Shown here one piece after another: positions 3,593 through 38,498 of a DNA stretch of 38,531 bases. The position numbers and the translations under genes were made by a program. Every line of letters begins with the position of its first letter. The first letter of the stretch is position 1. The notes beneath the pieces are model-generated. The model did no database searches. It had not been told where the DNA came from and worked only from the letters and a program-made list of their open reading frames with translations. The stretch spans positions 1 to 38,531 of the forward strand of contig JAVCCG010000084.1 of NCBI GenBank assembly GCA_030765605.1, given 5' to 3'. The stretch is from Candidatus Alcyoniella australis. GTDB lineage: Bacteria > Lernaellota > Lernaellaia > JAVCCG01 > Alcyoniellaceae.

Positions 3593-3616
3593 ATGCGTAT
3601 CGGGAGGATATCTGTC

Positions 3617-4906: not shown

Positions 4907-4923
4907 AAAAGATTGGACGAGAT

Positions 4924-6258
<1,335 letters not shown>

Positions 6259-7966: not shown

Positions 7967-9549
7967 TTGCGGTGATCGATAATTACGACTCGTTCGTCTA
8001 CAACCTGGTGCAACTGTTCCGCAGCATCGGCTCGGAGGTGCGCGTATTTCGCAACGATGCGCTGAGCGTTGAACAACTGCGCGACATGAACCCCTCGCAG
8101 ATCGTGATCTCGCCCGGGCCCTGCACGCCGGATCAGGCGGGGATCAGCGTCGATGTGATCCGCAAGCTGGGTCCGCAGATCCCGATCCTCGGCGTCTGTC
8201 TGGGGCACGAGGCCATGGGCGCGGCTTTCGGCGCGCGACTGATGCGCAGCCACGAGATCGTTCACGGCAAAAGCTCGGAGGTCAAACACGACGGCCGCTC
8301 CCTGTTCCAGGGGCTGGACTCGCCGATGACCGTGGGCCGCTACCACTCGCTGGAGCTCGACCCAGATACGATTCCCGACGAGCTGGAGGTCAGCGCCTGG
8401 ACCGGCGACGGCAGCGTAATGGCCGTGCGCCATCGTCGCTATCCGCTGGAGGGGGTGCAGTTTCACCCGGAGTCGGTACTCACTCCCCAGGGGCGCTGGC
8501 TGTGCGAAAACTTCCTGCACGGCGGCAGGCCGCGCACCACGTTGAAAGCGGCGATCGGCAGGGTCGTGGACGGCCGCGACTTGGCGCGCCCCGAGGCTGA
8601 GGACGTGATGAAGCAGATCCTCTCCGGCGCGGCCACCCCGGCCCAAATCGCGGCGCTGATCATCGCACTGCGTCTCAAGGGCGAGACCGTGGAGGAGGTG
8701 GCGGGCTGCGCCAAAGTGATGCGCGAGTTCGCCGCTCCGTTGCGCGCGCCCGCAGTCCCGCTGCTGGACACCTGCGGCACGGGAGGCGATGGCGGCAACA
8801 CCTTCAACATCTCCACAGCCGCCGCCTTTGTGGCGGCGGGCGCGGGCTGCAAAGTGGCCAAGCACGGCAACCGCGCGGTGAGCAGCCGCTGCGGCAGCGC
8901 GGACGTGCTGCTGGAACTGGGCGTGAACATCAACTGCGGCCGGGAGCTGACCGAACGAGCGTTGGACGAGGCGGGAATTGCGTTTCTGTTCGCGCCCGCA
9001 TTCCACGCCGCGATGAAACACGCCATCGGCCCCCGGCGCGAGATCGGCGTGCGCACGCTGTTCAACATCCTCGGCCCGCTGACCAACCCGGCCGGCGCGA
9101 CCCGGCAGCTGATCGGGGTCTACGATCCGCGCCTGACCAAGCTGGTCGCCGGCGTGCTGGCCGAGCTCGGGTCGGAGCGGGCATTGGTGGTGCACGGCGC
9201 GGACGGCCTGGACGAGATCACCCTCAGCGGCTCGACCCGTGTGACCGAGCTCAAGAACGGACGGATCGAGACCTTCGAGATCAAGCCGTCCGACTTCGGC
9301 CTCGAGCCGTGTTCAGCGTCCGAGATGGCCGGCGGCGTTCCCCGCACCAACGCGTCGATCCTGCGCTCGATCCTCGAGGGCCGACGCGGGCCGACGCGCG
9401 ACGTGGTCCTGCTCAACGCCGGGGCGGCCCTTGCCTGCGCGGGACAGGCCGACGATCTGCAACAGGGGATCGCGATGGCCCGGGAGTCGATCGATAGCGG
9501 CCGGGCCCGGATCGCCCTGGACCGTCTGGTGGAGATCACCAATGGCTGA
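7963..9549 (+). CDS. trpGD: Fused anthranilate synthase glutaminase / anthranilate phosphoribosyltransferase
   Basis: A bifunctional protein of 528 residues. Residues 1 to about 190 are a class I glutamine amidotransferase (TrpG) that releases ammonia for TrpE. It has the nucleophile Cys79 in GVCLGHE and the His168/Glu170 pair in FHPES. After a short linker, residues from about 200 form TrpD, which transfers phosphoribose from PRPP to anthranilate. It has the PRPP-binding DTCGTGGDGGNTFNIST and the KHGNRAVSSRCGSADVLE-type motif. Such G-D fusions are known from enteric bacteria and some others. The start is the ATG in the ATGA overlap with trpE, giving the standard MIAVIDNYDSFVYN opening. It overlaps trpC by 8 bases. 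The conserved Gln after GVCLGH is Glu here (GHEA), a mild oddity; the catalytic triad is intact. Confidence 0.97.
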   Translation: MIAVIDNYDSFVYNLVQLFRSIGSEVRVFRNDALSVEQLRDMNPSQIVISPGPCTPDQAGISVDVIRKLGPQIPILGVCLGHEAMGAAFGARLMRSHEIVHGKSSEVKHDGRSLFQGLDSPMTVGRYHSLELDPDTIPDELEVSAWTGDGSVMAVRHRRYPLEGVQFHPESVLTPQGRWLCENFLHGGRPRTTLKAAIGRVVDGRDLARPEAEDVMKQILSGAATPAQIAALIIALRLKGETVEEVAGCAKVMREFAAPLRAPAVPLLDTCGTGGDGGNTFNISTAAAFVAAGAGCKVAKHGNRAVSSRCGSADVLLELGVNINCGRELTERALDEAGIAFLFAPAFHAAMKHAIGPRREIGVRTLFNILGPLTNPAGATRQLIGVYDPRLTKLVAGVLAELGSERALVVHGADGLDEITLSGSTRVTELKNGRIETFEIKPSDFGLEPCSASEMAGGVPRTNASILRSILEGRRGPTRDVVLLNAGAALACAGQADDLQQGIAMARESIDSGRARIALDRLVEITNG

Positions 9550-10318
9550 GGGGATTTTGCACACGATCCTGAGCGCCAAACGCGAGGAAGTCGCACTGCG
9601 CAAGGTGCAACGTCCCCTTGTGCAGACGCGCCTGACCAGCCCAATGGGGCTGTACTTTGAAAACGCACTGGCAGCGCCCGGGATCAGCCTGATCGCCGAA
9701 ATCAAGCGCGCCTCGCCCAGCAGGGGGGCGCTGCGGCCGGACCTCGATCCGGTTGCCCTGGCGCACATTTATAGGCGGGCCGGAGCAGCGGCGATTTCAG
9801 TGCTCACCGACGAGCCGTTCTTCGAGGGCTGTCTGGACGACCTGCGCCTGGCCGTAAAGGCCGGAGGGCTGCCGGTGTTGCGCAAGGATTTCATCATCGA
9901 TTGCTATCAGATCCTCGAGGCGGCTGACGCGGGCGCCGCGGCAGTGCTGCTGATCGTCGCCGCCCTTGACCAACCGCAACTCATCGGGTTGATCGACTAT
10001 GCGCACGAGCTGGGCCTCGCCGCGCTGGTCGAGGTGCACGACGCGCCGGAACTCGAGCGCGCGCAGGCCTCGGATGCGCGCGTCATCGGCATCAACAATC
10101 GCAACCTGACCAGCTTCAAAACCGACCTGCAAACCAGCTTCGATCTGCTGCCCCTGATCGACGAGGATCGGCTGACAGTGGCCGAGAGCGGCATCCACGA
10201 CGCCGGAGAAGTGCAAAGCCTGGAGCGGGCCGGGGTCAACGCGGTGCTCGTGGGCGAGGCGCTGGTCACGGCGATCGATCCGGCGGCCAAAATCGAGGAG
10301 TTGCTGAGCAGTGAATAA
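9542..10318 (+). CDS. trpC: Indole-3-glycerol phosphate synthase
   Basis: Converts carboxyphenylaminodeoxyribulose phosphate to indole-3-glycerol phosphate, the fifth step after chorismate. A TIM-barrel of 258 residues with typical motifs: the substrate-binding Lys in AEIKRASPSRG, SVLTDEPFFEG, LRKDFIIDCYQI, ALVEVHD, IGINNRNLTSF and AESGIH. The start ATG at 9542 overlaps the end of trpGD by 8 bases; frame upstream of this belongs to trpGD in another register. It overlaps trpF by 8 bases. Here trpC is a separate protein rather than the TrpC-TrpF fusion of E. coli. Confidence 0.98.
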   Translation: MAEGILHTILSAKREEVALRKVQRPLVQTRLTSPMGLYFENALAAPGISLIAEIKRASPSRGALRPDLDPVALAHIYRRAGAAAISVLTDEPFFEGCLDDLRLAVKAGGLPVLRKDFIIDCYQILEAADAGAAAVLLIVAALDQPQLIGLIDYAHELGLAALVEVHDAPELERAQASDARVIGINNRNLTSFKTDLQTSFDLLPLIDEDRLTVAESGIHDAGEVQSLERAGVNAVLVGEALVTAIDPAAKIEELLSSE

Positions 10319-13079: not shown

Positions 13080-14390
13080 GTGCGCGCCGGCCATTTTACA
13101 TTGCTGTTTATCATCAGAGCAGCGTTTCTGCTGGCCATGACGTTGCTGGTTCTGTTCCTGACCGGAAAATTGTCCTTGGCCTTGATCTGGTCGATCACCT
13201 TCCTGGTGTCGCTGAAATTGAACGAAATGCTGCTGAGAAAGCGAGTGACCCGCACGGCCATAGACAAACCTGTATGGCTGTTGATCGCTGGTTCGATCGT
13301 CGCCATGCTGCTGCTGGTGGGCGGCCTGAGCGTAGCCACAGGCCTGCGCCCAGCCATGGGAGGCCTGATCGCGCTGCTGCTCGCCGTGCTCCTTGTAATC
13401 CAGTCGCTCTATCTTTTGCCGCGATTGAGGATGGCCAATACCCTGCTCTTCCTGTTGGCTTGCTGCGCCCTATTGACCGTTGAAGGTCTGGTCCGAGCCG
13501 GTGGGCTCGAAGTCTACGCTCAGCCCCAGGGCGTGCCGCGCTCGATGATCAGGGATTCGAGGCTCGGCTGGATCACGCCCAACCTGGATGATGTGTTTAA
13601 TTTTCAGGAAGCCTCGTCAATGGGCATCGGCCAGCGGCTACAATCCGATGCGCAAGACAGCCAAAAGCTCGTGCTCTGCCTCGGAGGAAGCAGCACCGCG
13701 GGCCAGCGAAATGCCGATGCCGATGACAATCGCTGGTGGCCCGAGGAACTGCAGGATGTGTTCGCAGCCGACGGGGAGCAGGTAAAAGTGCTTAACGCCG
13801 GAGCTTCGGGCTACGCCAGCTTCCAAATACTGGTCCTTTTCAAAGAGTTCCTGACAGCCGTGCGGCCGGACCTGGTAATCGTTTACTCCGGTTTTAACGA
13901 CTTCTGCCAGGCTCAGTCAGCGCCCATGACCCAGCGCGAGTGGTTCGAATTGAGCCGTCGCGCCCAAAACGGCCAAGCCGGCGGCTGGATCGTCAGCCTG
14001 CAACGCCTGCTCTCGCATTCGCATCTGTATAACCTCGCAGTCCGCGCCGCGATGGTCGGCCGAGCCAAATTAGGCGATGCCAGGGCCAACTCGCCGGTGG
14101 AGTTTAAGCACAATTTGATCGAACTGTGCCAGGAGATCCACAGCCGGGGCGGCAGAGCCCTTTTCGTAGCCGAGGCATCACCGACCGTTCCGCCCGAGTA
14201 TGGCGAACAGATGGTATCAGCGGCCGCTGAGTGCGACGCGCTGTTCCTGGACATTCAGCCGCGACTTTTGCAGGGGCATCAATGGGGCGAGCTGTTTTCC
14301 GACGATGTGCACACCACGCCTTTTGGCGCGCAGATCATCGCCCAAGTCATGGCCGACTTTATCGATGAGCAAAATCTCATTACCCAATGA
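13080..14390 (+). CDS. Membrane-anchored SGNH/GDSL hydrolase
   Basis: A 436-residue protein. Its first 140 residues contain about four transmembrane helices, and a C-terminal SGNH-hydrolase domain follows from about residue 150. The four family blocks are visible: the nucleophile Ser204 in LGGSSTAGQ, the Gly of NAGASGY, SGFND (Asn block), and Asp408/His411 in DDVHTTPFG. Such enzymes remove or transfer acyl groups from sugars or lipids, and the membrane anchor suggests a cell-envelope substrate, perhaps a polysaccharide. The GTG at 13080 is chosen because AGGGGG ends 8 bases upstream; an earlier in-frame GTG at 13053 has no such site. It follows trpA but shows no functional link, and substrate and side of the membrane are unknown. 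Confidence 0.82.
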   Translation: MRAGHFTLLFIIRAAFLLAMTLLVLFLTGKLSLALIWSITFLVSLKLNEMLLRKRVTRTAIDKPVWLLIAGSIVAMLLLVGGLSVATGLRPAMGGLIALLLAVLLVIQSLYLLPRLRMANTLLFLLACCALLTVEGLVRAGGLEVYAQPQGVPRSMIRDSRLGWITPNLDDVFNFQEASSMGIGQRLQSDAQDSQKLVLCLGGSSTAGQRNADADDNRWWPEELQDVFAADGEQVKVLNAGASGYASFQILVLFKEFLTAVRPDLVIVYSGFNDFCQAQSAPMTQREWFELSRRAQNGQAGGWIVSLQRLLSHSHLYNLAVRAAMVGRAKLGDARANSPVEFKHNLIELCQEIHSRGGRALFVAEASPTVPPEYGEQMVSAAAECDALFLDIQPRLLQGHQWGELFSDDVHTTPFGAQIIAQVMADFIDEQNLITQ

Positions 14391-14395
14391 TATAG

Positions 14396-14423
14396 AAAAC
14401 CCGGAATCATTTTTGATTCCGGG
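14396..14423 (-). terminator. Terminator of the initiator tRNA gene
   Basis: A perfect 10-bp stem (CCCGGAATCA paired with TGATTCCGGG, four-base loop) is followed on the minus strand by TTTTC. It sits 9 bases past the tRNA 3' end. On the plus strand there is no T-run, so it mainly serves the tRNA, though the hairpin also follows the SGNH gene. Confidence 0.8.
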
Positions 14424-14432
14424 TAATTAACT

Positions 14433-14509
<77 letters not shown>

Positions 14510-14521
14510 TCAGGGAGCGAT

Positions 14522-14550
14522 AACTTAGCCGCTTGCCTGGCCTTTGTCAA
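14522..14550 (-). promoter_or_regulatory. Promoter of the initiator tRNA
   Basis: On the minus strand TTGACA (14545-14550) is followed by exactly 17 bases and then TAAGTT (14522-14527), placing the transcript start a few bases before the tRNA 5' end. Confidence 0.75.
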
Positions 14551-14635
14551 CAGCAATCGCGGTGCCCCGCAGGCCCTGCGCTTGCGGCCTTACGCGCGCC
14601 GGCCGTAGAATGGCTAAAATCTCCAGGAGGCGCTG

Positions 14636-15688
14636 ATGCCCACTGTCGGCATAGTTACCAGCCCGTTATTTACCGAGCACGACACCGGCTCGATGCATCC
14701 GGAAAGCCCCCAGCGTCTGGTCGTAATTCAGCGCATGCTGGAAAGTTCCGGCCTGATCCACCGTCTCAAGCAGCTGCCGTTGCGCGACGCTAAACGCGAC
14801 GAGCTACTGGCGATCCACGACTTCTCCCACATCCGGCGCGTCGAATCGACCGCGGGCGTACGCTCCTCGGCCCTGGACATGGACACGCCGCTGAGCGCGC
14901 GCAGTTACGACGCGGCGCTGCAGGCCGCGGGAAGCTGCTGCGAGGCGGTTAAATTGATCCACGAGGGCGTGGTCGACAGCGCCTTTGCCCTGGTGCGGCC
15001 GCCGGGACATCACGCCGAATCCGACCGCGGCATGGGATTCTGCCTGTTCAACAACGTGGCCGTAGCCGCCAGGTACGCACTGGACCGACTGGGGCTGCAA
15101 CGCGTGGCGATCGTCGATTGGGACTTGCATCACGGCAACGGCACACAACACTCGTTTGAACAAAGCGACGAGGTGCTCTACGTCTCGACCCACCGCTCGC
15201 CGTTCTACCCGGGCTCCGGCGACTTCTTCGAGGTCGGCAGCGGAGTCGGCGAGGGCTTCTCCCTCAACCTGCCGATGGGCATCGGCCACGGCGACGGCGA
15301 TTACGTCACACTGTTCGATCAGGTGATCTGCCCGGTGCTGCGCGAGTATCAGCCGCAGCTGCTGCTGGTCTCCGCCGGATTCGACACGCACATCAACGAT
15401 CCGCTCGGCGGCGAGAACTGCACGCCGCTGGGCTATCAGCAAATGACGTTACGGCTGCTCGAGGTCGCGGACGAATGCTGCGGCGGCAAGATGCTGGTCA
15501 CGCTCGAGGGCGGCTACGATCTCCAGGGCCAGGCCGACAGCATCCAGGCCGTGCTCGAGACGATGTTGGCGCAGCCCGCAGAACGCGGGCGTGTGGAGCT
15601 CGAGCCGGAGAAGCCGCGGATCATCGGCCAGCTGGTGGCCCAGGCGCTGATGGTCAACGGCAAGTACTGGGAGACGCTGGCCCAGTGA
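14636..15688 (+). CDS. Class II histone deacetylase-like / acetoin-utilisation-type amidohydrolase
   Basis: Zinc-dependent deacetylase of 350 residues. The active site is complete: tandem His125-His126 in RPPGHHAE, zinc ligands Asp163 and His165 in DWDLHHGNGTQ, and Asp250 in SAGFDTH. Bacterial members act on acetylated lysine, acetylpolyamines or acetoin-pathway proteins, so the substrate is not determined by sequence. A good GGAGG precedes the ATG. It overlaps the prenyl diphosphate synthase gene by 4 bases (GTGA), so the two are translationally coupled and probably co-transcribed with archease. A lysine-rich histone-like protein is encoded 8 kb downstream; a link between them is speculation. 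The last 40 residues lie beyond the catalytic core. Confidence 0.93.
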   Translation: MPTVGIVTSPLFTEHDTGSMHPESPQRLVVIQRMLESSGLIHRLKQLPLRDAKRDELLAIHDFSHIRRVESTAGVRSSALDMDTPLSARSYDAALQAAGSCCEAVKLIHEGVVDSAFALVRPPGHHAESDRGMGFCLFNNVAVAARYALDRLGLQRVAIVDWDLHHGNGTQHSFEQSDEVLYVSTHRSPFYPGSGDFFEVGSGVGEGFSLNLPMGIGHGDGDYVTLFDQVICPVLREYQPQLLLVSAGFDTHINDPLGGENCTPLGYQQMTLRLLEVADECCGGKMLVTLEGGYDLQGQADSIQAVLETMLAQPAERGRVELEPEKPRIIGQLVAQALMVNGKYWETLAQ

Positions 15689-17050: not shown

Positions 17051-19258
17051 ATGGATGTTGACGAGGCCTACCTGACATACAACGAAGACGACGACGAGCT
17101 CGAGTTCGACGCCGGCGGCGTGGACCTGTTGCTGTTTGCCGCGGCCGGCGCTGCGTTCTTCCCGTTGCTGCGCGGCCTACACGCTGTGCTGGCGCACTCC
17201 GTGGTCCCGCCGACGTCGGCCCTGGCGAGCTTGGGATTCGCAGGCGGCGCGCTGATCGCCGCACGGATCAGGCGTCGCAATCCGGACGCGCCCTGGCCCG
17301 CGTTCGCGTTTCTCGGACTCGCGGTCGGACTGCTGTTGTTCACGATTTTATTCCGGCTGTGGCCCGATCGCCTCGACGGCGTTCAGGGTCCGGCCTGGGT
17401 CGCGGTCGCGGTTTGGTCCCTGTGCCTGGCGGTCGTGTTGTTCTGGATCGGCTCGGCCCTGTCCTGGTCGCTGTGCATCGCTTCGCGCAACGCTGCCGGT
17501 CCTCTGGCGCGGGCGCTGTTCGGCTTGAGCCTGGGTCTGGGCATCGGCGCGGCGTTGCTCTCGCTGCTGGGCGGCCCGGGCGCAATGCTCGTGCTGGCGA
17601 TGGTCTGCTCGCTTTGCTGCGCCTGGATGGCGTTCAACAACGGCCCGCGCTGGATCGTCTGGTCCGGGCTGGGCCTAGCCTCGGCGTTGCTGGTCACCGG
17701 AGCGGTCGACTTGTTCCATCCCTACCTCGAACGTGGAACGGGCCGGGCGCATTGGAACAGCGCGGCGCGGGTTCAGCTCGAACCAAGTGCGGACGGAGAC
17801 CGGCTGTTGATCGACCGCCGCCTGCGGTTCCAGACCGGTCCGGGTTGGGACGCGCCGCCAGTGTCGAAACTGCCCGCCTTATTGCTGGACCCGACCGACG
17901 TGCTGGTCCTGGGTGCGGCAGGCGATCGCCAGGCGCGCTGGATGTTGCGCAACGGAGCGACCCGCGTGCTGACGCAGCCCGAGTCCGCGCTGGTCCCGAT
18001 GGCGCTGGGCAAGCCGACCGTTGAGCTGTCCTGGACCGCACTCCGCGGAATCGCCGCCCTGGGTCAGCAGCGTTTCGATCTGATCTGGCTGCCGCAGCGC
18101 GTCGATCTGCGGGCCGCACGCTCGGGCGAGCTGCTGTTTCACGCCGACCGGCTGCTGACGCGCGAGGGGATTGCGGCGGCTCTGGAACACCTGTCGGACG
18201 AGGGCCTGCTGGTGATTGAGGCTTGGCCCGGGGACGAGGGGCTGCTACTGGGTCTGCTGGCGCTGGTGCGCACGACGTTCGGCGATCTTGACGCGCGGCG
18301 TCACGTGTTCGCGGTGCAGGGCGACGAACTGGCGCTGATCCTGGTCCGCCGCTCGCCGTTCGAGGGCGGCCGCGCAGTGGGCGGGATCGACGCGCTGATC
18401 AGCGCCTGCACCTCTCGCGGTCTGACGATCCACCACGCGCACCTGCTGCAGGGCCGCGATCGCCTGACCCGCTGTGCGATCAAGTACGTCGGCGGCCCAC
18501 AGCTTGATCGCTCGCCCTCGCGCGATCGGCCGTTCTTTTTCGCCTTTACCGGAGCGCTGGGCGGAGCGGCCAACGACCCGCAACGGCTGATCCTGTTCTG
18601 CGCGATCGTTGCCGCAGCGCTGTTCGGCCTGTCGCTGGTTGCCTGCGCCTGGACGTTGCTTATCCCGTCGAGCCGTTCGCGCGCCGCCCAGCGCGTCCAC
18701 GCCTTTCGCAGCGGACTGGGCGCGGCCGCGGCCGCGTTGGCCATCGGCCCCTCGCTGTTCGTTCTGGGGCGAATGCTCGCGCCGCTGGTCGGACGCGACG
18801 GTCTGGCGCTCGCCGGTTGCGCAACAGCCGCAGCCCTGGGGCTGAGCATCGGCGCGGCCCTGTCACGCGCCCTGCCCCGCGATGCGGCCGGACGCTGGAT
18901 CAAGGTCGTGATGGCGCTGGAACTGGTCTACCTGATGTTGGCCGTCTACCTGGGACCGCGCGTCCTGCTTTCGCCGCCTGCCAATTCACTGACCGCCGCG
19001 GCGCTGGCCGCTGCGTTGCTGATTCCCGCTGCCGCGGGCTTCGGCACGCTGCTGGGAGCCGGCCTCACGGCCGGGGCCTCGGGCAGGCTCGGACCAGCCG
19101 GGTTGGTGGTCTGCTGCGCCCTGGCGTTGCCGGCCGGCGTTTTGCTATCACTGTTGCTGCCGCTGTACTTGGGGTTGATTAAGACCGCCCTTTGCGGCGC
19201 GGCCCTGGGTCTGCTCGCCGCCTTTGTGCTGCCCGAGGAGCTTGATCCCGAAGGCTGA
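17051..19258 (+). CDS. Large membrane protein with inserted spermidine-synthase-like domain
   Basis: A 735-residue protein. After an acidic cytoplasmic N-terminus (about 20 residues rich in Glu and Asp) there are six or seven hydrophobic helices, then a soluble region from about residue 230 to 500, then about seven more helices. The soluble part contains DVLVLGAAGDRQARWMLRNGATRVL, which resembles the nucleotide-binding strand-loop-helix of spermidine synthases and related methyltransferases, and DEGLLVIEAWP near the usual beta-strand 5. The acidic residue that normally ends the second strand and holds the cofactor ribose is not evident (VLTQPES), so catalysis is doubtful. The architecture recalls membrane-fused polyamine aminopropyltransferases of environmental bacteria. 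GGAG lies 10 bases before the ATG. It is convergent with the sensor gene. Confidence 0.6.
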   Translation: MDVDEAYLTYNEDDDELEFDAGGVDLLLFAAAGAAFFPLLRGLHAVLAHSVVPPTSALASLGFAGGALIAARIRRRNPDAPWPAFAFLGLAVGLLLFTILFRLWPDRLDGVQGPAWVAVAVWSLCLAVVLFWIGSALSWSLCIASRNAAGPLARALFGLSLGLGIGAALLSLLGGPGAMLVLAMVCSLCCAWMAFNNGPRWIVWSGLGLASALLVTGAVDLFHPYLERGTGRAHWNSAARVQLEPSADGDRLLIDRRLRFQTGPGWDAPPVSKLPALLLDPTDVLVLGAAGDRQARWMLRNGATRVLTQPESALVPMALGKPTVELSWTALRGIAALGQQRFDLIWLPQRVDLRAARSGELLFHADRLLTREGIAAALEHLSDEGLLVIEAWPGDEGLLLGLLALVRTTFGDLDARRHVFAVQGDELALILVRRSPFEGGRAVGGIDALISACTSRGLTIHHAHLLQGRDRLTRCAIKYVGGPQLDRSPSRDRPFFFAFTGALGGAANDPQRLILFCAIVAAALFGLSLVACAWTLLIPSSRSRAAQRVHAFRSGLGAAAAALAIGPSLFVLGRMLAPLVGRDGLALAGCATAAALGLSIGAALSRALPRDAAGRWIKVVMALELVYLMLAVYLGPRVLLSPPANSLTAAALAAALLIPAAAGFGTLLGAGLTAGASGRLGPAGLVVCCALALPAGVLLSLLLPLYLGLIKTALCGAALGLLAAFVLPEELDPEG

Positions 19259-19277
19259 GAAATAGCTGTCTGGGCGA

Positions 19278-21965
19278 TCAGGGTTGGGATTGCCGCCCGC
19301 CCTCGGCGGTCTGCTGTTCAAGCAGCAGGTCCAGCACCTCGAGCACCGCCACGGCGTCGCTAGAAGACGGAAGCACGCTGTGGATCCGCGCCTCGTCCTC
19401 ACTGCTCAACGTCGGGACCACTGAATCCGAGCGGATGGCGATCAAGGCCAGTTCCGGACGCAGCTCGCCGACCGCGTGCAGCACCTGTTGGGCCGAACCG
19501 TGGGGCAACCCCAGATCGAGCAGCACAATGTCGATGATCGGCCCCTGCTGTTCCACCGCCTCGATCGCCTCGCGAGCGTTGGAGGCTGGGATCACGCTGT
19601 AGCCCGCACGGGTCAACACCGACTGCAGCATGCCCGACATATGCCGCTTGGCGTGAGCCAGCAGTACGGTGCAGGTCAAGCCGCCGGAGATCAGCTGCTC
19701 GCGCCGCAGATCCAGGTTCTCGGCGGCGGGCAGGTAGATCGTAACGCAGTTGCCCGCGTCCCGTCGGCTCGTCGCCCGCACGTACCCGGAGTGGGACTTG
19801 ACGATGCCGTAGACCATCGACAGGCCCACGCCGTGACGCTGGCCGCGGCGGTCGATCGTGAACGGCATGAACAGCGTCTGCAGCGCCCGGGAGTCGATGG
19901 GCGGCCCGTGGTCGATGATTTCGACGGTGACGTATCTGCCCGGCGGGATTGTGTCCCGCTCGTCCGACAGCGCCTGTTGGAGATCGATCATGTCGACAAT
20001 CATCTCGGCCGAATCGGCGCGCGGCGCGGCCTGGCGCGCGTTGATCATCAGCGACAGCAGGGCCTGTTCGAACATCCCCGAGTCGAGGCGCACCGGGGCC
20101 GGCGCGCTGTTGATCTTGAGCTTCACCTCCCAGACGGGATCGATCGTCTTGTTCAGCTCGGGCAGCAAATCCTCGATCAGCCTGGTAACGTCGAACAGCC
20201 GCGGATGGGCGCGGGGTTCGGCCGAAATGTACTTGAGCTGCTCGGCCATGCGCATCACGCTGCGCCCGGCCTCCTCCATCGCCTCGAGGCTGCGGTAGAC
20301 CCGGTCGTCGGTGGGCAGGATCGACTTGGCCACCGCGCTGTGACCGAGGATCACGCTCATCTGTTCGGCCAGGCGGCGTGAGATGCCGCCGGCGAGGATC
20401 TCCAGCCCCTCGATCTTGGCCTCGGCGGTCAGCGCGCGCTCCATCCGCTTGCGCTCGGTGATGTCGCGGATGATCGTGATCACGCGCTGCACCTGGCCCA
20501 ACGAATCGTGGATCGGGATCTTGCTCGTCTCGGTCCAGAACTGCCGGTCCTCGGTCTCGGTGAACTCTTCGCTGATCTGCGGTTCGCCGTTCTCGAACAC
20601 CGCGCGATACTCCCGCAAGGCCTTTTCCGGGATAAAGGGAAAGACCTCGGAAATCTTGGCGCCCACCGGCGTAGCGGAGAAGCCCAACTCGGAGGCGACG
20701 CGTTCCAGCGCCTCGTTGCACAACACGATCCGCAGATCGCGGTCGGCCACGTGAACGATGTCGTCCAGCGCGTCGATCGTCGTGCGGTAGCGCTCCTCGC
20801 TTTGACGCAACGCCTCCTCGGCCTCGCGGCGCTTGGTGATGTCGCGGATAACCGCCAGCACGCGATCCTCGCCCAGGCGTTTGGCGTTGATCTCGACCTG
20901 GACCGAGCTGCCGTCCTCGCGGGCGATCACGGCCTCGGTCAATATCCGCTCGCCGCGCAATACCCGCTTGAAGTTCTGCTGGTGAAGCTCTCTGTCGTCA
21001 GCCCGGTGCAGGTCGGTCAGCAGCTTGCCGATCAGCTCGTTGCGCAAGCGGCCCGCCAACTGACAGGCTGCTTGGTTGACGTCGGTGATCCGCCCCTTGG
21101 AGTCGTAGACCAAAATCGCGTCGGAGGCCTGCTCCATCAGTTGGCGATACTTTGCCTCGCTACGGCGCAACGCCTCCTCGGCCTGCCTGCGCTCGCTGAT
21201 GTCGCGGATGCTGGCCTGAAAGGTGTTCTCGTCGATGCGCGAGGCCGTAATTTCGACCGGTATCACCCGACCGTCAGAGCGTCGCAGCTCGCGCTCGTGG
21301 CGCACCACCTTGCCTTGCATCACCTCGGCGATGCGCAGCGGACTGTGCTTAAGGTTCTCGTGGGTGATAAATCCGGGGGCTCCCTCGCGCTTTAAATAAT
21401 CAAGGGGGCGATCGAGCAGCTCGAGAAACTTGGGATTGGCGTCGAGCATCTTGCCGTTGACGTCGGCGATAAGGATCGAGTCCGAGGCGTTCTCGAGCAG
21501 CAGGCGGTAGCGTTGTTCGCTCTTTCGCAACGCTTCGTCCGAGACCTTGCGTTCTGTGACGTCCTGGCCGAAGACCAGAAACAGCTCTTGTCCGTGCCAG
21601 CCGCGAAACAGCGTCGAGTTCCATGCCAAGCAGCGCAGCTCGCCTGAGCGAGTGACGATCGTCGCCTCGTGATAAGAAAGCCGACCCTGCTCAAGCATGG
21701 AATTGAAAACGGTCTTCGCCTTTTCACCCATGCCCTGCGGCACGAAGCGCTCAATGAAGTCCCGATCGACCAACTGCTCCAGAGCGTAGCCGGAGAGCTC
21801 GATGAAAAACCGGTTGGCGTAACGGATCTTGTGATCTGTGGTCAACGCAATGACGCAGATGCCCAGCATGTCCAGGCCGCGTTTGAGCAGGTCGACGTCG
21901 AAGCTGCCCAGGTCGCTGGGAAGCTCGATCGCCTTGAACGACTTGTTGTTATTTTCTTCAGCCAA
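19278..21965 (-). CDS. Multi-PAS hybrid sensor histidine kinase, apparently degenerate
   Basis: An 895-residue cytoplasmic sensor with no transmembrane segment. Four PAS modules are visible, beginning near residues 27, 150, 272 and 392, each joined by an RDI(S/T)(E/K)R-type PAC end. A DHp-like helix follows at 510-580, a HATPase domain at about 590-745, and a receiver-like domain at 764-885. The DHp segment reads LAGGISRRLAEQ where active kinases of this type have LAGGIAHDFNN: Arg530 occupies the phospho-His position. The ATPase keeps the N-box Asn (MINARQ) and GHGVGLS, but its G1 box is DHGPPI rather than DxGxG. The receiver keeps a phosphorylatable Asp817 (LLDLGLP) but lacks the N-terminal acidic pair (LLAHAK) and the usual KP motif. 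The TTG at 21965 (AGGGG upstream) avoids overlap with the divergent gene; an ATG at 21869 is an alternative. Confidence 0.85.
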   Translation of the reverse strand: MAEENNNKSFKAIELPSDLGSFDVDLLKRGLDMLGICVIALTTDHKIRYANRFFIELSGYALEQLVDRDFIERFVPQGMGEKAKTVFNSMLEQGRLSYHEATIVTRSGELRCLAWNSTLFRGWHGQELFLVFGQDVTERKVSDEALRKSEQRYRLLLENASDSILIADVNGKMLDANPKFLELLDRPLDYLKREGAPGFITHENLKHSPLRIAEVMQGKVVRHERELRRSDGRVIPVEITASRIDENTFQASIRDISERRQAEEALRRSEAKYRQLMEQASDAILVYDSKGRITDVNQAACQLAGRLRNELIGKLLTDLHRADDRELHQQNFKRVLRGERILTEAVIAREDGSSVQVEINAKRLGEDRVLAVIRDITKRREAEEALRQSEERYRTTIDALDDIVHVADRDLRIVLCNEALERVASELGFSATPVGAKISEVFPFIPEKALREYRAVFENGEPQISEEFTETEDRQFWTETSKIPIHDSLGQVQRVITIIRDITERKRMERALTAEAKIEGLEILAGGISRRLAEQMSVILGHSAVAKSILPTDDRVYRSLEAMEEAGRSVMRMAEQLKYISAEPRAHPRLFDVTRLIEDLLPELNKTIDPVWEVKLKINSAPAPVRLDSGMFEQALLSLMINARQAAPRADSAEMIVDMIDLQQALSDERDTIPPGRYVTVEIIDHGPPIDSRALQTLFMPFTIDRRGQRHGVGLSMVYGIVKSHSGYVRATSRRDAGNCVTIYLPAAENLDLRREQLISGGLTCTVLLAHAKRHMSGMLQSVLTRAGYSVIPASNAREAIEAVEQQGPIIDIVLLDLGLPHGSAQQVLHAVGELRPELALIAIRSDSVVPTLSSEDEARIHSVLPSSSDAVAVLEVLDLLLEQQTAEGGRQSQP

Positions 21966-27471: not shown

Positions 27472-28049
27472 TGAACCCTGTCTCGCACTTCCTCATCGGC
27501 TGGGTCACGGCCAACACGGTCGAGCTGACCCGACGCGACCGCGCACTGATCGTGATTGCCGGAGTTGCCCCGGACCTCGACGGCCTGGGGATTGTGGCTG
27601 AGAAAGCCACGCAGCACAGCGAGCAGCCCCTGCTCTGGTGGACGCAATATCATCACGTGCTGTGCCACAACCTGGGGTTCGGCCTACTGCTGACTGCCCT
27701 GGCCCTGGTGCTTGCCAAGACCCGACGCGCGATAACCGCGCTGCTGGCCCTGCTGGCGTTCCATTTGCACCTGCTCGGCGATTTGGTGGGCGCACGCGGC
27801 CCTGAGGGCGACCAATGGCCGATCCCCTATTTGCTGCCCTTCTCCGACAAATGGGAACTTGCCTGGTCGCACCAATGGGCGCTCAACGCCTGGCCCAACT
27901 TTGCGATTACCGCCGCCATGCTCGCCGCTACATTCTACCTGGCAGCCAAACGCGGCTACTCCCCCCTGGAGTTCGTATCACAAAAGGCTGATAAGAAGTT
28001 CGTCGAAACGCTGAGGAAGCGGTTTGGGGAAAACTGGCCCAGCGGGTAA
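27471..28049 (+). CDS. YdjM/DUF457-type membrane-bound metal-dependent hydrolase
   Basis: An integral membrane protein of 192 residues. Family features are HFLIGW near the start, GVAPDLDGLG (metal-binding Asp), YHHVLCHNLGFG and FHLHLLGDLVGARGPEG, giving the conserved His and Asp set of the LexA-binding inner-membrane hydrolase (YdjM) family. It starts at a GTG overlapping the previous stop by one base. Its TAA (28047-28049) directly abuts the TTA of the convergent lipoprotein gene. Decayed copies of its last 30-45 codons recur at 28612-28695 and 29206-29340, so its 3' end has been duplicated around inserted genes. The biochemical substrate of this family is not established. Confidence 0.85.
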   Translation: MNPVSHFLIGWVTANTVELTRRDRALIVIAGVAPDLDGLGIVAEKATQHSEQPLLWWTQYHHVLCHNLGFGLLLTALALVLAKTRRAITALLALLAFHLHLLGDLVGARGPEGDQWPIPYLLPFSDKWELAWSHQWALNAWPNFAITAAMLAATFYLAAKRGYSPLEFVSQKADKKFVETLRKRFGENWPSG

Positions 28050-28532
28050 TTATTCGCATTCGGCCCAGTTCCACCCGGGTGTGGGCTGGAAAAGAGATCG
28101 ATCAGGATCGCACTTTAACGCTCGACAGACCCTCTCCAGACAATTAAGCCCCTCTTCCTCGTGGCGATAGCAATGCATTTCCTCGGAATCGGCTTCGCAC
28201 GAGGCGACGCACTCAGCAATCGAAGGTTGTTCAAAAATCCTTTGGGCGTCTGAGCAATTCAACAACATATCGCAACGCTCGACACAAGCGTCGTGCCCGA
28301 AATCCTCCTCGTCATCGTTGCCCTCGTCGTCTTCGTCATGATCATCATCATTGTCATCGATATCGTCGTCGCCATCGATATCGTCGTCGCCATCGATATT
28401 CACGTCATCATTGTTGTTGTCTTCTGACCTGCTGTTGTCATCGCTATCATCGTCGCTGGTGCAAGAGAGGCAACCGAACAGCAGTAATACAATACAAATA
28501 TAATATATTATCGACCTATACTTATTCCCCAT
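28050..28532 (-). CDS. Asp-linker, Cys-rich lipoprotein
   Basis: A 160-residue predicted lipoprotein. The signal peptide ends LLLFGCLSC, so Cys21 or Cys24 could be lipidated. An Asp/Asn linker of about 60 residues follows. The C-terminal domain has paired cysteines (ACVERC, LNC, CVASC, LNCLERVC, LKC), suggesting several disulfides and a small helical fold exposed outside the cytoplasm. The start is the ATG at 28532 with GAGGG upstream; the longer open frame from 28589 begins inside the promoter. The DNA is AT-rich relative to the host. It ends exactly at the DUF457 stop codon, an unusually tight junction. The function is not recognised. Confidence 0.75.
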   Translation of the reverse strand: MGNKYRSIIYYICIVLLLFGCLSCTSDDDSDDNSRSEDNNNDDVNIDGDDDIDGDDDIDDNDDDHDEDDEGNDDEEDFGHDACVERCDMLLNCSDAQRIFEQPSIAECVASCEADSEEMHCYRHEEEGLNCLERVCRALKCDPDRSLFQPTPGWNWAECE

Positions 28533-28560
28533 CGCGCCCTCATTTACCTTGATTGCATAC

Positions 28561-28589
28561 AAACTATAATAGCTACACTGTTTTGTCAA
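28561..28589 (-). promoter_or_regulatory. Candidate promoter of the Asp-linker, Cys-rich lipoprotein
   Basis: On the minus strand TTGACA (28584-28589) is followed at 17 bp by TAGTTT (28561-28566), overlapping TATAGT at 15 bp. It resembles the promoter region at 3563-3592. Confidence 0.45.
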
Positions 28590-28611: not shown

Positions 28612-28695
28612 CAGCTTGAATTCATCTCGTAAAAGGTTGGCAAATACCTCTGTGAGACGCTGAGGAAGCGGTTTAAAACCGATGGCGGGTGTTAA
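28612..28695 (+). pseudogene. Decayed second copy of the DUF457 gene 3' end
   Basis: The frame QLEFIS-stop-KVGKY, then CETLRKRF and a final TAA, parallels the true C-terminus PLEFVSQKADKK, then VETLRKRF. A TAA stands where the intact gene has CAA. Eighteen bases (ACGCTGAGGAAGCGGTTT) are identical at 28008-28025 and 28657-28674. The fragment has no start and is not functional. Confidence 0.8.
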
Positions 28696-29205: not shown

Positions 29206-29340
29206 AGCAACTCCTTTGCCGCCGCCTTCTACCTGGAAGCCAAACGCGGCTACTTCTCCCTGGATTTCATCTCACAAAGGGCGTATAATAAGTTTGTTGA
29301 ATTTTCAAGAAAGAGGTTCGGAAATGCATTGGATCACTGA
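29206..29340 (+). pseudogene. Third copy of the DUF457 gene 3' end
   Basis: Reading from 29206, the frame contains FYLEAKRGYFSLDFISQRAY, then KRFG and a TGA at 29338-29340, parallel to FYLAAKRGYSPLEFVSQKAD, then KRFG in the intact gene. The first 53 bases (29227-29279) match 27933-27985 with six differences. There is no start or upstream body. The start codon of the following gene lies inside it in another frame. Confidence 0.8.
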
Positions 29341-30448
29341 TATACAAAAATATTGGTCAGAGATGACTAAAACTGCTCGTTCTTTAATTAAAGCCGCTTT
29401 CGCGACGCTTATATTATTTTCCCTTATCGAATTTTTAAATTGCATACAATTTCCACCTTTATTTACTTTAGTACTTAATCATAGCGATAGCTTGTATGGC
29501 TTGCTTCTTACCGCTGCTTTTATAATCACTTTTTGGTATCTACGATTAAAGCATAAAGAAGAAGAGTTGATGAATGATAAACTTCATAAAGCTTTAAATA
29601 TGTTAGGGCATCCAAATAGCTCTACTCGTATTATTGCTATCTACTTATTGGGCCATATAATGAAAGAGTACACATTTTTTCATTGGACCATAGTGGTAAC
29701 ATTGGTCGATTACATCCGTGTTCATTCAGAGTGTAAGGGTGATGAGATATCTTCTGAACGTGCTGGTCGTGATATTGAGGCAGCAATCCGTGTACTAGGT
29801 AGACGAAACGACAACCTAGATCCCGAGGGTTCAAAAATCGATCTCGTTCGCTGCAATTTAAATGATGTAGGCTTTGGAAAAGAACTTGATGGGGCTAAAT
29901 TCCCGTATGCTTCGTTTCATGGCTCCTCCTTAAAAAGAGTAAATATGATGGAAGCTATTCTTAATAATGCCAGTTTTCATAGTACCGATATATCTGGGGC
30001 AAGCTTCTGCGGTGCAAATCTTGTTAACGCTAATTTTAGATATGTAATACAAGCGATTAGGACTAATTTCAGCAACGGCAAAAAACATATCGGGCCACCA
30101 GTTAGTCCTGCTAATCTCCGTGGCGCAGATTTTACTCGTGCCCATATAAGCGGAGCGAACTTTGAAGGCGCAACCTTGAATGAAGTTGTGTTTCATGGCG
30201 CAACATGTGTTAATACAATTTTTATCAAAGCATCCCTAAACAACGCCGATTTCTCAATTGCTGATAAAGGCACTCCAAAAGCCAAACCTGCTCATCTCTG
30301 TGGTGCCGACTTTAGAGGCGCACCATTGAATGGTGCAATTTTCAAAGACGCACTATACAATGACGACACAAAAGGTCTAGATCAAGCAACATTGGATACA
30401 ATGACAAGATGTACCCTCGAAGAATGCAATAAACAAAAGACAGAATAG
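29324..30448 (+). CDS. Two-helix membrane pentapeptide-repeat protein
   Basis: A 374-residue protein. Two transmembrane helices lie at about residues 20-42 and 52-72, then a soluble helical region, then pentapeptide repeats from about residue 190. These include GASFCGANLVNANF, ANLRGADFTRAHISGANFEGATL and AHLCGADFRGAPLNGAIF, which should fold as a right-handed quadrilateral beta-helix. The ATG at 29324 has AGAGG upstream and lies within the DUF457 3' relic; an ATG at 29201 in the same frame is less likely because it reads through that relic out of its frame. The gene is strongly AT-rich, typical of recent transfer. Pentapeptide proteins have varied roles, from DNA mimicry to scaffolding, and nothing here selects one. 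Confidence 0.82.
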   Translation: MHWITDIQKYWSEMTKTARSLIKAAFATLILFSLIEFLNCIQFPPLFTLVLNHSDSLYGLLLTAAFIITFWYLRLKHKEEELMNDKLHKALNMLGHPNSSTRIIAIYLLGHIMKEYTFFHWTIVVTLVDYIRVHSECKGDEISSERAGRDIEAAIRVLGRRNDNLDPEGSKIDLVRCNLNDVGFGKELDGAKFPYASFHGSSLKRVNMMEAILNNASFHSTDISGASFCGANLVNANFRYVIQAIRTNFSNGKKHIGPPVSPANLRGADFTRAHISGANFEGATLNEVVFHGATCVNTIFIKASLNNADFSIADKGTPKAKPAHLCGADFRGAPLNGAIFKDALYNDDTKGLDQATLDTMTRCTLEECNKQKTE

Positions 30449-30469: not shown

Positions 30470-30607
30470 ATGAATACAGATAGTACAAATATCGATGCCC
30501 AACTCACCTCCTACAATCGCAACTTCGCCCGTTACAACAAGCGGCGGGTGCGGTTTTTCCGCTGGTTATTCAAGCACTACAATCGGCTTGAGGTGATCGG
30601 GGCGTAG
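30470..30607 (+). CDS. Small basic protein, copy A
   Basis: A 45-codon frame ending RRVRFFRWLFKHYNRLEVIGA. Its core is shared with the 47-codon frame at 31969-32112 (74 bases, six differences, most keeping the amino acid class). The C-terminal half is GC-rich host-like DNA inside an AT-rich island. There is no strong ribosome binding site. I do not recognise the family; the conserved Arg/Phe/Trp-rich segment could be an amphipathic helix. Conservation of the frame in both copies argues for coding. Confidence 0.5.
   Translation: MNTDSTNIDAQLTSYNRNFARYNKRRVRFFRWLFKHYNRLEVIGA
30526..30599 (+). repeat. Left member of a 74-bp direct repeat flanking the beta-helix gene
   Basis: It matches 32028-32101 at 68 of 74 positions, in the same orientation, 1.5 kb apart. 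Confidence 0.9.
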
Positions 30608-30684
30608 AACGTGCCCCAGGGGCTAAGTCAAACAACTCAAATCAATTGACATAAAAATATTGGGTAGTTTTTATTGAACTTGCC

Positions 30685-31863
30685 TTACTTGCGGCAAGTT
30701 CCTTGACCTGGATCTGGACCGTGATAGGTTGCTCCGGCGAGATAGCTATTCCCAACGCCATCCACGCAATATACGTTCTCTGATCCTTCATCAGATACTC
30801 TTCCATAATAGAAGTAATTGCCTACAAGTACATTCTCGCTTCCTTCCGACCCCAGTTCAATCACATCTGGTTGAGTTTGAGGACTACCATCATAATGAGT
30901 AATATACGTATTATTTGTAACCCAGTTATTCTCTCCCTTATAAATATGGCTCCCCTCTCCTCCGTACATCTCTACGTGGTTGCCCTCAACGATTGAATGC
31001 GATGTTTCAGATAGCCATATTCCATTACAAGCCGCCCCTCCCCTTGACACGATCTTGTTATTTCTGATTAGGACTTTTTGGCTATTCATTATTGCAATCG
31101 GAGATTCAACAGAAGGAAATTGATTCTCGTATCTGTTTTCAGAAATAGTCACATCCACACAATTCAAACAATCCACTCCATATCCAGATCCAATTTCATT
31201 TATAAAAGTGGAGTTGCATATTGCTGCTTTCTCTACGGGATGATCCCTTCCTTCTAAGTCAATAAATCTTCTCTCCGGATTATATATTTTAACTTCCGAT
31301 ATTTTACAGCCGTTACCTCCTCCAATAATTCCAGTTTGAAATTCATGCAACACACAGCCGGTAATAAAATCATTTTTACCATTTAGCATTATTCCTGCTT
31401 GGTCTTTTCTGCCTCTTAGGATTGTTCCGTCACAGTATAATCCAATATTGTTCGATTCAATGACTATCCCTGGTTCGTCGGTATTACTTAAATCATATTC
31501 CCCCGGACAGAAAACAGTTGTCTCTGTAATTTTCATTCCTGGCGTGGGTTTTACGCAAGTTATGTTATAATTATTGGGATCTCTGTTTTCACATCGATTG
31601 TCTATCTCGGGAGGAACTATCTTCTCGTCACCTTCTACAGAATCATTATCATCAAATTGTCTTTGGTGGCTTAAATGCTCATCATAATTATCATTGTTAA
31701 ATAGACCATTGACTAGCTTCCATGCCGGCATTTGTGGATTCGTTGCGGCAACCGCTGTAACAATTAAATACAGCAAGAATATGACTATTACAGATACTAC
31801 CGGAGCGATGAAAAACCATCTGCGAGCAATGGCATGATATCGGACTTTTTTTTGCGGCTTCAT
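30685..31863 (-). CDS. Membrane-anchored right-handed beta-helix protein
   Basis: A 392-residue protein with one N-terminal transmembrane helix (about residues 15-40), a linker of low complexity, and from about residue 130 a parallel beta-helix. Repeating short strands are visible: GIVIESNNIGLYCDGTIL, GIMLNGKNDFITGCVL, VDVTISENRYENQF, KVLIRNNKIVS, SIVEGNHVEM and NWVTNNTYIT. This is the pectate-lyase-like fold found in polysaccharide lyases, isomerases and surface adhesins. I see no catalytic set. The gene is AT-rich, has no clear ribosome binding site, is opposite in orientation to its flanks, and lies between the two copies of the small basic ORF. Confidence 0.8.
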   Translation of the reverse strand: MKPQKKVRYHAIARRWFFIAPVVSVIVIFLLYLIVTAVAATNPQMPAWKLVNGLFNNDNYDEHLSHQRQFDDNDSVEGDEKIVPPEIDNRCENRDPNNYNITCVKPTPGMKITETTVFCPGEYDLSNTDEPGIVIESNNIGLYCDGTILRGRKDQAGIMLNGKNDFITGCVLHEFQTGIIGGGNGCKISEVKIYNPERRFIDLEGRDHPVEKAAICNSTFINEIGSGYGVDCLNCVDVTISENRYENQFPSVESPIAIMNSQKVLIRNNKIVSRGGAACNGIWLSETSHSIVEGNHVEMYGGEGSHIYKGENNWVTNNTYITHYDGSPQTQPDVIELGSEGSENVLVGNYFYYGRVSDEGSENVYCVDGVGNSYLAGATYHGPDPGQGTCRK

Positions 31864-31968
31864 TTTTTATATTTGCAACTAACGTCCAGCTTGCGAGGCA
31901 TTGAACTTGATAATTCAAAATTAATTATACCACATTGTATTGCTTTACAAGGGTGATATTATTCTCTA

Positions 31969-32112
31969 ATGACAACTCAGGATTCTTTAATCATCAACCA
32001 CCGTCTCACCGCTTACCGCCAGGATTTCGCCCGTTGCAACCAGCGGCGGGTGCGGTTTTTTCGCTGGATGTTCAAGCACTACAATCGGCTCGAGGTGATC
32101 GTCGCGGACTAG
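31969..32112 (+). CDS. Small basic protein, copy B
   Basis: A 47-codon frame ending RRVRFFRWMFKHYNRLEVIVAD, paralogous to copy A. It lies just before the acyl-CoA dehydrogenase gene, so this copy may be the original chromosomal one. AAGGGTG occurs 15 bases upstream of the ATG, too far to be an ideal ribosome binding site. Function unknown. Confidence 0.5.
   Translation: MTTQDSLIINHRLTAYRQDFARCNQRRVRFFRWMFKHYNRLEVIVAD
32028..32101 (+). repeat. Right member of the 74-bp direct repeat
   Basis: Pairs with 30526-30599; see the left member. It lies in GC-rich sequence at the right edge of the AT-rich island. Confidence 0.9.
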
Positions 32113-32208: not shown

Positions 32209-33906
32209 ATGATACTGCTCAACCCCAAGCAGCACACACGCCACTACCCGGACGAGCGCACCCGCGAGCTGATGCTCAAGACCATCGAATTCTTTGAGAG
32301 CAAGGGCAAGGGCAAGCTCAAGCAGGACGACCGCGAGCGCACCTGGTACCGCGACTTCCTCGATTTCAACAAGCAAGAGAAGCTGTTCGCCACGCTGCTC
32401 ACCCCGGCGGGGTACGGCGCCGAGGACTCGCGTTGGGACACTTGGCGCATCTGCGAGTTCAACGAGATTTTGGCGTTCTACGGCCTGCACTATTGGTACG
32501 CCTGGCAGGTCTCGATTCTCGGGCTGGGGCCGATCTGGATGAGCGACAACGAGCAGCTCAAGCAGCGCGCCGCACAGCAGTTGATCGACGGCGAGATCTT
32601 CGCCTTCGGCCTGTCCGAGCGCGCGCACGGGGCCGACGTCTATTCCACCGAAATGGCGCTGACCGAGGCGGGTGAGGGAAAGTACAAGGCCAACGGCAGC
32701 AAGTACTACATCGGCAACGGCAACGAGGCCAAGATGGTCTCGACCTTCGGCAAGTTCGCGGAGAGCGGCGACTACGTGTTCTTCATCGCCAACTACCTCA
32801 AACCGCAGTACGAGCTGGTCAAGAACATCGTCAACGCACAATCGTACGTGGCCGAGTACGCGCTGCACGACTACGAGGTCGGCGAGGACGAGATCCTAAG
32901 CAAAGGCCAGAACGCTTGGGACTCGGCGCTGAACACGGTCAACGTGGGCAAGTACAACCTGGGCTGGGCCTCGATCGGCATCTCCACCCACGCGTTCTAC
33001 GAGGCGATCAAGCATGCGGCCAACCGCGTGCTCTACGGCATGCACGTCACCGACTTCCCGCACGTCAAGCAGTCGTTCGTCGACGCCTACTCGCGGCTGG
33101 TGGCGATGAAGCTCTTTGCCCTGCGCACCGCCGACTACATGCGCACCGCATCGCGCGAGGATCGGCGCTATTTGCTTTATAATCCCGCGGTCAAGATGAA
33201 GGTCACCACCCAGGGCGAGGACGTGATCAACCTGCTGTGGGACGTGATCGCGGCCAAGGGGTTCGAGAGCGACATGTATTTCGAAAGCGCGGCCCGCGAC
33301 ATCCGCGCCCTGCCCAAGCTCGAGGGCACGGTGCACGTCAACATCGCGCTGATCCTCAAGTTCATGCCCAACTACTTTTTCAACCCCGGCCAGTTTCCGG
33401 AGATGGGCACTCAGGACCAGATCGGCGACGACGCGTTCCTGTTCGACCAGGGTCCGACCAGGGGCCTGGGCAAAGTCCAGTTCCACGACTACAACGTCGC
33501 CTACGGCAAGTTCGACCTGCCCAACGTCAGGCTGTTCCGCGAGCAGATCGAGATCTTCAAAGAGGCGCTGATGGCTGCCGCGCCAATGGGCGATCAGCAG
33601 AAGGACATGGACTTCCTGCTGACCATCGGCGAGATCTTCACCCTGGTGGTCTACGGCCAGCTGGTGCTGGAAAACGCCGAGCTGTACAAGCTCGAGAACG
33701 ACGTGGTCGACCAGATCTTCGACTTCATGGTGCGCGACTTCTCCAAGTTCGCGCTCCAGCTCTACGCCAAACCCAGCAGCACGGAAACGCAGCAGGAATA
33801 TTGCCTGAAGATGATCCGCAAACCCGCGGTCGATCAGCAGCGCTACGAGCGCGTCTGGAGCGAGTTCGTCTACCCGCTCAAGGACGCCTACGAGATGAAT
33901 CCCTGA
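32209..33906 (+). CDS. Acyl-CoA dehydrogenase family protein, long form
   Basis: A flavoprotein of 565 residues expected to oxidise the alpha-beta bond of an acyl-CoA. The middle domain shows FAFGLSERAHGADVYSTEM, the FAD/substrate segment usually seen as LTEPxxGSD. The helical C-terminal domain has LEGTVHVN, matching the EGT motif that holds the catalytic Glu in medium- and short-chain enzymes (Glu372 here). An extension of roughly 170 residues beyond the common 380-400 length is present, as in long forms. AGGAGGT at 32196-32202 fixes the ATG. It is followed on the same strand by PilZ, decarboxylase-like and ketopantoate-reductase-like genes. Substrate unknown. Confidence 0.85.
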   Translation: MILLNPKQHTRHYPDERTRELMLKTIEFFESKGKGKLKQDDRERTWYRDFLDFNKQEKLFATLLTPAGYGAEDSRWDTWRICEFNEILAFYGLHYWYAWQVSILGLGPIWMSDNEQLKQRAAQQLIDGEIFAFGLSERAHGADVYSTEMALTEAGEGKYKANGSKYYIGNGNEAKMVSTFGKFAESGDYVFFIANYLKPQYELVKNIVNAQSYVAEYALHDYEVGEDEILSKGQNAWDSALNTVNVGKYNLGWASIGISTHAFYEAIKHAANRVLYGMHVTDFPHVKQSFVDAYSRLVAMKLFALRTADYMRTASREDRRYLLYNPAVKMKVTTQGEDVINLLWDVIAAKGFESDMYFESAARDIRALPKLEGTVHVNIALILKFMPNYFFNPGQFPEMGTQDQIGDDAFLFDQGPTRGLGKVQFHDYNVAYGKFDLPNVRLFREQIEIFKEALMAAAPMGDQQKDMDFLLTIGEIFTLVVYGQLVLENAELYKLENDVVDQIFDFMVRDFSKFALQLYAKPSSTETQQEYCLKMIRKPAVDQQRYERVWSEFVYPLKDAYEMNP

Positions 33907-37796: not shown

Positions 37797-38498
37797 CTAG
37801 CAGTCGTCGTCCGAATCGCCGGAGTCGTCGTCGTCCGAATCGCCGGAGTCGTCGTCGTCCGGACCGCCGAAGTCGCCATCATCAATACGAAATGGCACAA
37901 GGAAATCAATAGTAACACAGGCATCATTATCTTCAAAAGAGTTCTTAAACTCAGGATAGTCATAGTCAATTTCCTCGTCACAACCTTCCCAATGACCCAG
38001 TACCACCTCATATTCCTCAGATTCAGATTGAATTTGCCACGAAAAGGTTCCTGATCCCTCAAATGAATATGAGTTTGTAGTTTCTCCACCAGGCGTGTCG
38101 CTTATACTAAAGAATGCTTCGGAAAACGAATATTCACCAGGATTGTAATCTTGAGCCCCATTACACCAATATCTAATATGGATGTGCTCTGATACATACC
38201 AAGCGCTTTTATTTTCCAGGTATGTGCCGGAAAAGATAAAATGCATATAATATGAGCCCATTGCTCCGCCAATATAAATAGGTTCTCCTTCCGGATCATC
38301 GAAATAGCATAAAAAATCATCATCAAATATCCGTCCTTCAACACGAATATATGGTTCATTTTCATCCAGATCGTCGTCATCATCGTCGTCTCCGCCATCG
38401 GAACCATCGTCGTCATCGCCGCCGCCGCTGCACGAGATCACCAGACCGACGCCGAGGCACAGCAGGGCAACAAGGGCCAGGAACAGTAAGCGCTTCAT
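37797..38498 (-). CDS. Asp-linker lipoprotein with AT-rich inserted domain
   Basis: A 233-residue predicted lipoprotein. The signal peptide ends LVISC (Cys23), followed by a Gly/Asp linker. Residues about 48-200 form a domain with YIGGAMGSYYMHFIFSGTYL and SYSFEGSGTFSWQI (beta-rich, no known family). A second Asp/Ser/Gly linker with a 24-bp tandem repeat ends at the TAG. The signal peptide and both linkers are GC-rich, while the domain between them is AT-rich, so the domain looks inserted into a pre-existing linker. AGAGGGG precedes the ATG at 38498. The product would be an outer-envelope lipoprotein lacking the downstream domain. Confidence 0.7.
   Translation of the reverse strand: MKRLLFLALVALLCLGVGLVISCSGGGDDDDGSDGGDDDDDDDLDENEPYIRVEGRIFDDDFLCYFDDPEGEPIYIGGAMGSYYMHFIFSGTYLENKSAWYVSEHIHIRYWCNGAQDYNPGEYSFSEAFFSISDTPGGETTNSYSFEGSGTFSWQIQSESEEYEVVLGHWEGCDEEIDYDYPEFKNSFEDNDACVTIDFLVPFRIDDGDFGGPDDDDSGDSDDDDSGDSDDDC

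Follow-up and report, generated by a model that had tools for sequence, protein, structure and literature searches.

Two small open reading frames flanking an AT-rich beta-helix gene are probably truncated 5′ ends of an acyltransferase gene

The window, the whole 38,531-nucleotide stretch of DNA from Candidatus Alcyoniella australis that was analysed, contains two small open reading frames on the forward strand, ORF1 (30470–30607, 45 aa, closed by TAG) and ORF2 (31969–32112, 47 aa). Between them, on the reverse strand, lies an AT-rich gene (30685–31863), the putative insert or cargo, whose product is a NosD-like right-handed beta-helix protein with a membrane anchor (PF13229, E 1.8e-13). This gene has paralogous places at three sites elsewhere in the genome (C21, C127 and C100) and relatives in genomes G006 and G002. 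The first intact GC-rich gene downstream encodes an acyl-CoA dehydrogenase (32212–33906, forward strand). ORF1 and ORF2 share a direct-repeat core of 76 bp (30524–30599 and 32026–32101, both forward) with 92.1% identity and an E value of 4.7e-25; a weaker extension of the repeat covers 30503–30604 and 32005–32106 at 83%. These two copies are the only ones in the 4.29-Mb genome. The gap between them has a GC content of 0.396 versus 0.615 in a genome sample, and about 1.5% of random intervals of the same length are equally AT-rich. The encoded proteins are 67% identical and both retain RRVRFFRW and FKHYNRLEVI. The preliminary description of the locus as two same-orientation frames of 45–47 codons on either side of an AT-rich opposite-strand gene, with 68 of 74 shared bases and these two common motifs, is borne out by the base and protein comparisons.

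Pieces of a second gene, which the preliminary description had overlooked along with the continuation of the frame past the ORF1 stop, lie 1–2 kb upstream of the small ORFs. An intact YdjM-family gene (PF04307; 27471–28049, forward) is followed by two minus-strand genes, with fragments of the YdjM C-terminus downstream. Its 3′ end (27924–28025) is repeated twice, with unrelated genes interleaved: once as a short C-terminal remnant (KVGKYLCETLRKRF; 28633–28674, forward), whose inner 21 bp are 95% identical to 28005–28025, and once as a remnant of residues 150–187 (29212–29325, forward; 63% amino acid identity). The AT-rich gene for a pentapeptide-repeat protein (29324–30448, forward) likely begins within the ORF as listed, with its true start immediately behind the latter remnant; the N-terminus that the listing gives this ORF (29201) is an out-of-frame reading of a YdjM remnant. 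Long aspartate runs after the signal region were also seen in secreted or lipoprotein-like proteins of the window (3593–6258, 28050–28589 and 37797–38498), and similar proteins are common in relatives (L022, L023).

The small ORFs resemble the segment that precedes the NHx4-5D motif in acyltransferases of the PF01553 superfamily (LPLAT/PlsC; MGAT/DAGAT-like subgroup). About five further recognisable codons stand 3′ of the ORF1 stop (30608–30622, forward); they encode NVPQG, which fits the acyltransferase motif G-x-E-N-V/I-P-x-G, and the homology ends there. ORF2 is truncated about six codons earlier. Read past its TAG, the ORF1 frame gives GA*NVPQG, with the asterisk at the stop, and the whole peptide is LFKHYNRLEVIGA*NVPQG, ending in ...RFFRWLFKHYNRLEVIGA*NVPQG. 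This peptide was searched against 386 genomes with X at the stop and with no family model, and matches were judged in frames of 200 or more residues with no stop codon. The top five such matches were L227 (FLWLYRHYFRVEAYGADRIPSG), L230, L231, L234 and L236. In all five, the acyltransferase NHSG/NHES motif lies directly 3′ of the match, and the four that were scanned (L234 lay outside the scan) returned PF01553 with E values of 1e-16 to 1e-26. Scored against a profile of the N-terminal parts of 12 same-phylum acyltransferases, which unlike the peptide search was built after the likeness had been noticed, the read-through peptide reached 19.6 bits versus a best of 9.2 in 10,000 shuffles, and the two ORFs ranked 1 and 2 of all window frames. 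The scores without the read-through are weak, at 10.6 bits for ORF1 and 6.9 bits for ORF2.

When aligned, the two ORFs stay in register with the stretch that immediately precedes the acyltransferase domain and fit the segment W-L-[FY]-x-x-Y-x-R-[VL]-E-x-x-G-x-x-[NR]-[VI]-P-x-G; the upstream motif Y-x-R-x-E-x-x-G-x-x-x-[IV]-P, used in judging PF01553 membership, is present. They differ from the superfamily in that the catalytic domain is missing, copy 1 carrying a stop codon and copy 2 being truncated. As the frames end before NHx4-5D, and neither this catalytic motif nor the acyltransferase domain is present, the ORFs are fragments and not PF01553 members. Pfam and NCBIfam scans called neither of them, a solved-structure search gave matches at chance level, and tblastn with 12 acyltransferases did not find the rest of the gene in the window. 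On the strength of the unmodelled peptide search and the profile ranking, the ORFs are best read as acyltransferase 5′ ends, a sequence-based assignment that is good but indirect. An ancestral acyltransferase gene beside the acyl-CoA dehydrogenase gene was considered and rejected: in G002 and G003 no acyltransferase gene directly adjoins the acyl-CoA dehydrogenase gene, the nearest being about 11 kb off (in G003), and only one of 80 acyl-CoA dehydrogenase loci examined has an acyltransferase-like match (L191).

The preliminary description had also offered a small mobile-linked gene of a new type, a proposal that finds no support: none of the window proteins scanned looked like an integrase, transposase or other recombinase, the ORFs stand in register with an acyltransferase, and stand-alone homologues are lacking. 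The last point covers the genome itself, its relatives (the phylum comparison set comprised seven genomes, all from other genera), 60 and then 386 other genomes, the genome_contigs (GTDB) collection, plasmids, phages and viral contigs, and an independent small-gene family was rejected on these grounds. The proposed search for homologues thus returned nothing as a gene in its own right, but did lead, through the read-through peptide, to acyltransferase N-termini. In the proposed comparison of the two copies, made with NG86, the last 28 codons, which form the core, have a dN of 0.089 and a dS of 0.29, hence a dN/dS of about 0.3, whereas the first 17 codons have a dN of 0.62 and a dS of 1.04; the core ratio rests on just two synonymous differences, so coding constraint or selection cannot be claimed from it. 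Together with the ATG starts and the open frames, this ratio is what speaks for a genuine, expressed and duplicated small gene, a basic amphipathic microprotein derived from an acyltransferase N-terminus. Such a gene is nevertheless very improbable, for its homologues occur in no collection searched, its promoter signal is not above chance, its dS comes from very few sites and copy 1 continues beyond its stop into the motif of the parent. A tract of recombination between two alleles, itself unproven, would account for a divergent start next to a near-identical core better than uniform decay does.

Loci of similar construction were sought in about 0.99 Mb of the genome, sampled by stretches and including the window. 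Short direct repeats (identity 80% or more) around 0.2–6 kb are few. The clearest other case (L095, G000:C113) has repeats at 17718–17800 and 19526–19608, with 98.8% identity over 83 bp, around 1.7 kb with a GC content of 0.41. Within 17697–19936 of this locus, the upstream copy consists of 43 codons from the 5′ end of an intact downstream gene of 143 aa, its first codons having diverged, and AT-rich genes of unknown family lie between fragment and intact gene; its anatomy is the same as that of the ORF1/ORF2 locus. At L101 (G000:C21), direct repeats at 8476–8585 and 9668–9774 surround a paralogue of the beta-helix gene that has a Fic/Doc gene as neighbour; further direct repeats at 13847–15364 enclose a poly-Asp lipoprotein gene. 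Of 30 AT-rich segments listed, four were masked and left out; 3 of the remaining ~26 are flanked by repeats (four if the poly-Asp paralogue pair is counted), compared with 15 of 400 control intervals. This difference is not significant, and the idea that AT-rich DNA is habitually framed by direct repeats across the genome was accordingly rejected; as the flanking repeats are not sufficiently enriched, no dedicated mobile mechanism can be claimed.

The same figures bear on whether the repeats could serve a cassette system for moving single AT-rich genes as its recombination sites (attC-like or att). Blocks of similar size (76–110 bp) and the same orientation do occur on both sides of a beta-helix gene at two loci, and around other genes elsewhere, but each locus has its own repeat sequence in place of a shared site. 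Moreover, the repeats form no stable hairpin (z −1.1 to +0.25) and fold no better than shuffled sequence, by which an attC or hairpin site was rejected; an RNA element was rejected likewise, there being no Rfam match, and inverted termini are absent. We therefore regard a cassette system as extremely improbable. It is also very unlikely, if marginally less so, that some lineages of this phylum acquire individual AT-rich genes encoding surface or secreted proteins via a recurrent, recombinase-free pathway that duplicates about 80–110 bp of the gene hit and so leaves locus-specific direct repeats.

The main competing explanation starts from a tandem pair of acyltransferase paralogues. Each would have decayed on its own, and the beta-helix gene would have been inserted between them later, with no duplication linked to its insertion. 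The N-termini are homologous throughout, as in two old paralogues, with aligned start codons, a one-codon indel and the high N-terminal dN given above, and the window has another tandem paralogue pair, the poly-Asp lipoproteins at 3593 and 4924. The core, however, is 92% identical with two synonymous differences in 28 codons and must therefore be young or homogenised, the ends of the two copies lie no more than about six codons apart, and the similarly built locus L095 keeps an intact downstream parent. Separate decay of paralogues is thus an unlikely account.

We consider it probable that the small ORFs are truncated 5′ ends (about 45–52 codons) of a gene of the PF01553 superfamily, left on either side of the AT-rich insert by recombination that used homology, the rest of the gene having been lost, and that they are not independent genes. 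Direct repeats of pieces of a resident gene flank atypical DNA here, as expected of an insertion scar. Of the earlier proposals, a target gene duplicated on insertion fits best, except that the duplicated unit would be a 5′ piece of an acyltransferase gene instead of a small gene. The foreign beta-helix gene most likely entered in or next to the acyltransferase gene, a short stretch of which would have served as homology, either by a single crossover of a circle carrying a piece of the gene together with the cargo or by homology-facilitated illegitimate recombination. Either route would place one partial acyltransferase copy on each side of the insert; loss of the gene body would need a further deletion, followed by decay. 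The route, the order of events and the fragments' lack of function are what we infer from the present arrangement. Counting the acyltransferase and YdjM pieces together, two resident genes are represented by fragments in the midst of four genes whose GC content is low or intermediate, and the repeated YdjM 3′ end probably reflects the same outcome, with AT-rich genes entering under partial duplication of resident genes. Against the insertion reading stand the genome's lack of an intact close parent (its best match reaches 44% over 27 residues), the lack of clear enrichment of flanking repeats around AT-rich segments, and the break of both copies at almost the same codon, which is unexpected under simple independent decay.

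Homology-facilitated illegitimate recombination is known from transformable bacteria and has been proposed to explain the effector/immunity arrays of the Vibrio cholerae T6SS (PMC5361080) and small variable segments (PMC2884548), 10–18% of which were reported to be flanked by direct repeats (PMC2884548). The likeness lies in a homologous anchor that joins foreign DNA and in the displaced 3′ ends or the fragments that resident genes leave beside new genes, as in orphan gene-fragment arrays of the T6SS kind. The present case differs in that both copies are 5′ fragments and in that the mechanism is deduced from one genome, without a relative that has the empty site. Since the ORFs are most likely the front ends of an acyltransferase gene, they would be scars of insertion and decay and not a new kind of small gene, and the cause is most likely ordinary, namely an acquired gene with gene fragments on its flanks. 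When raw sequence is all that is read, duplicated gene ends next to such a gene can mimic a new small-gene family. The locus also contributes, from a phylum with sparse sampling, a further case in which duplicated fragments border an AT-rich insert.
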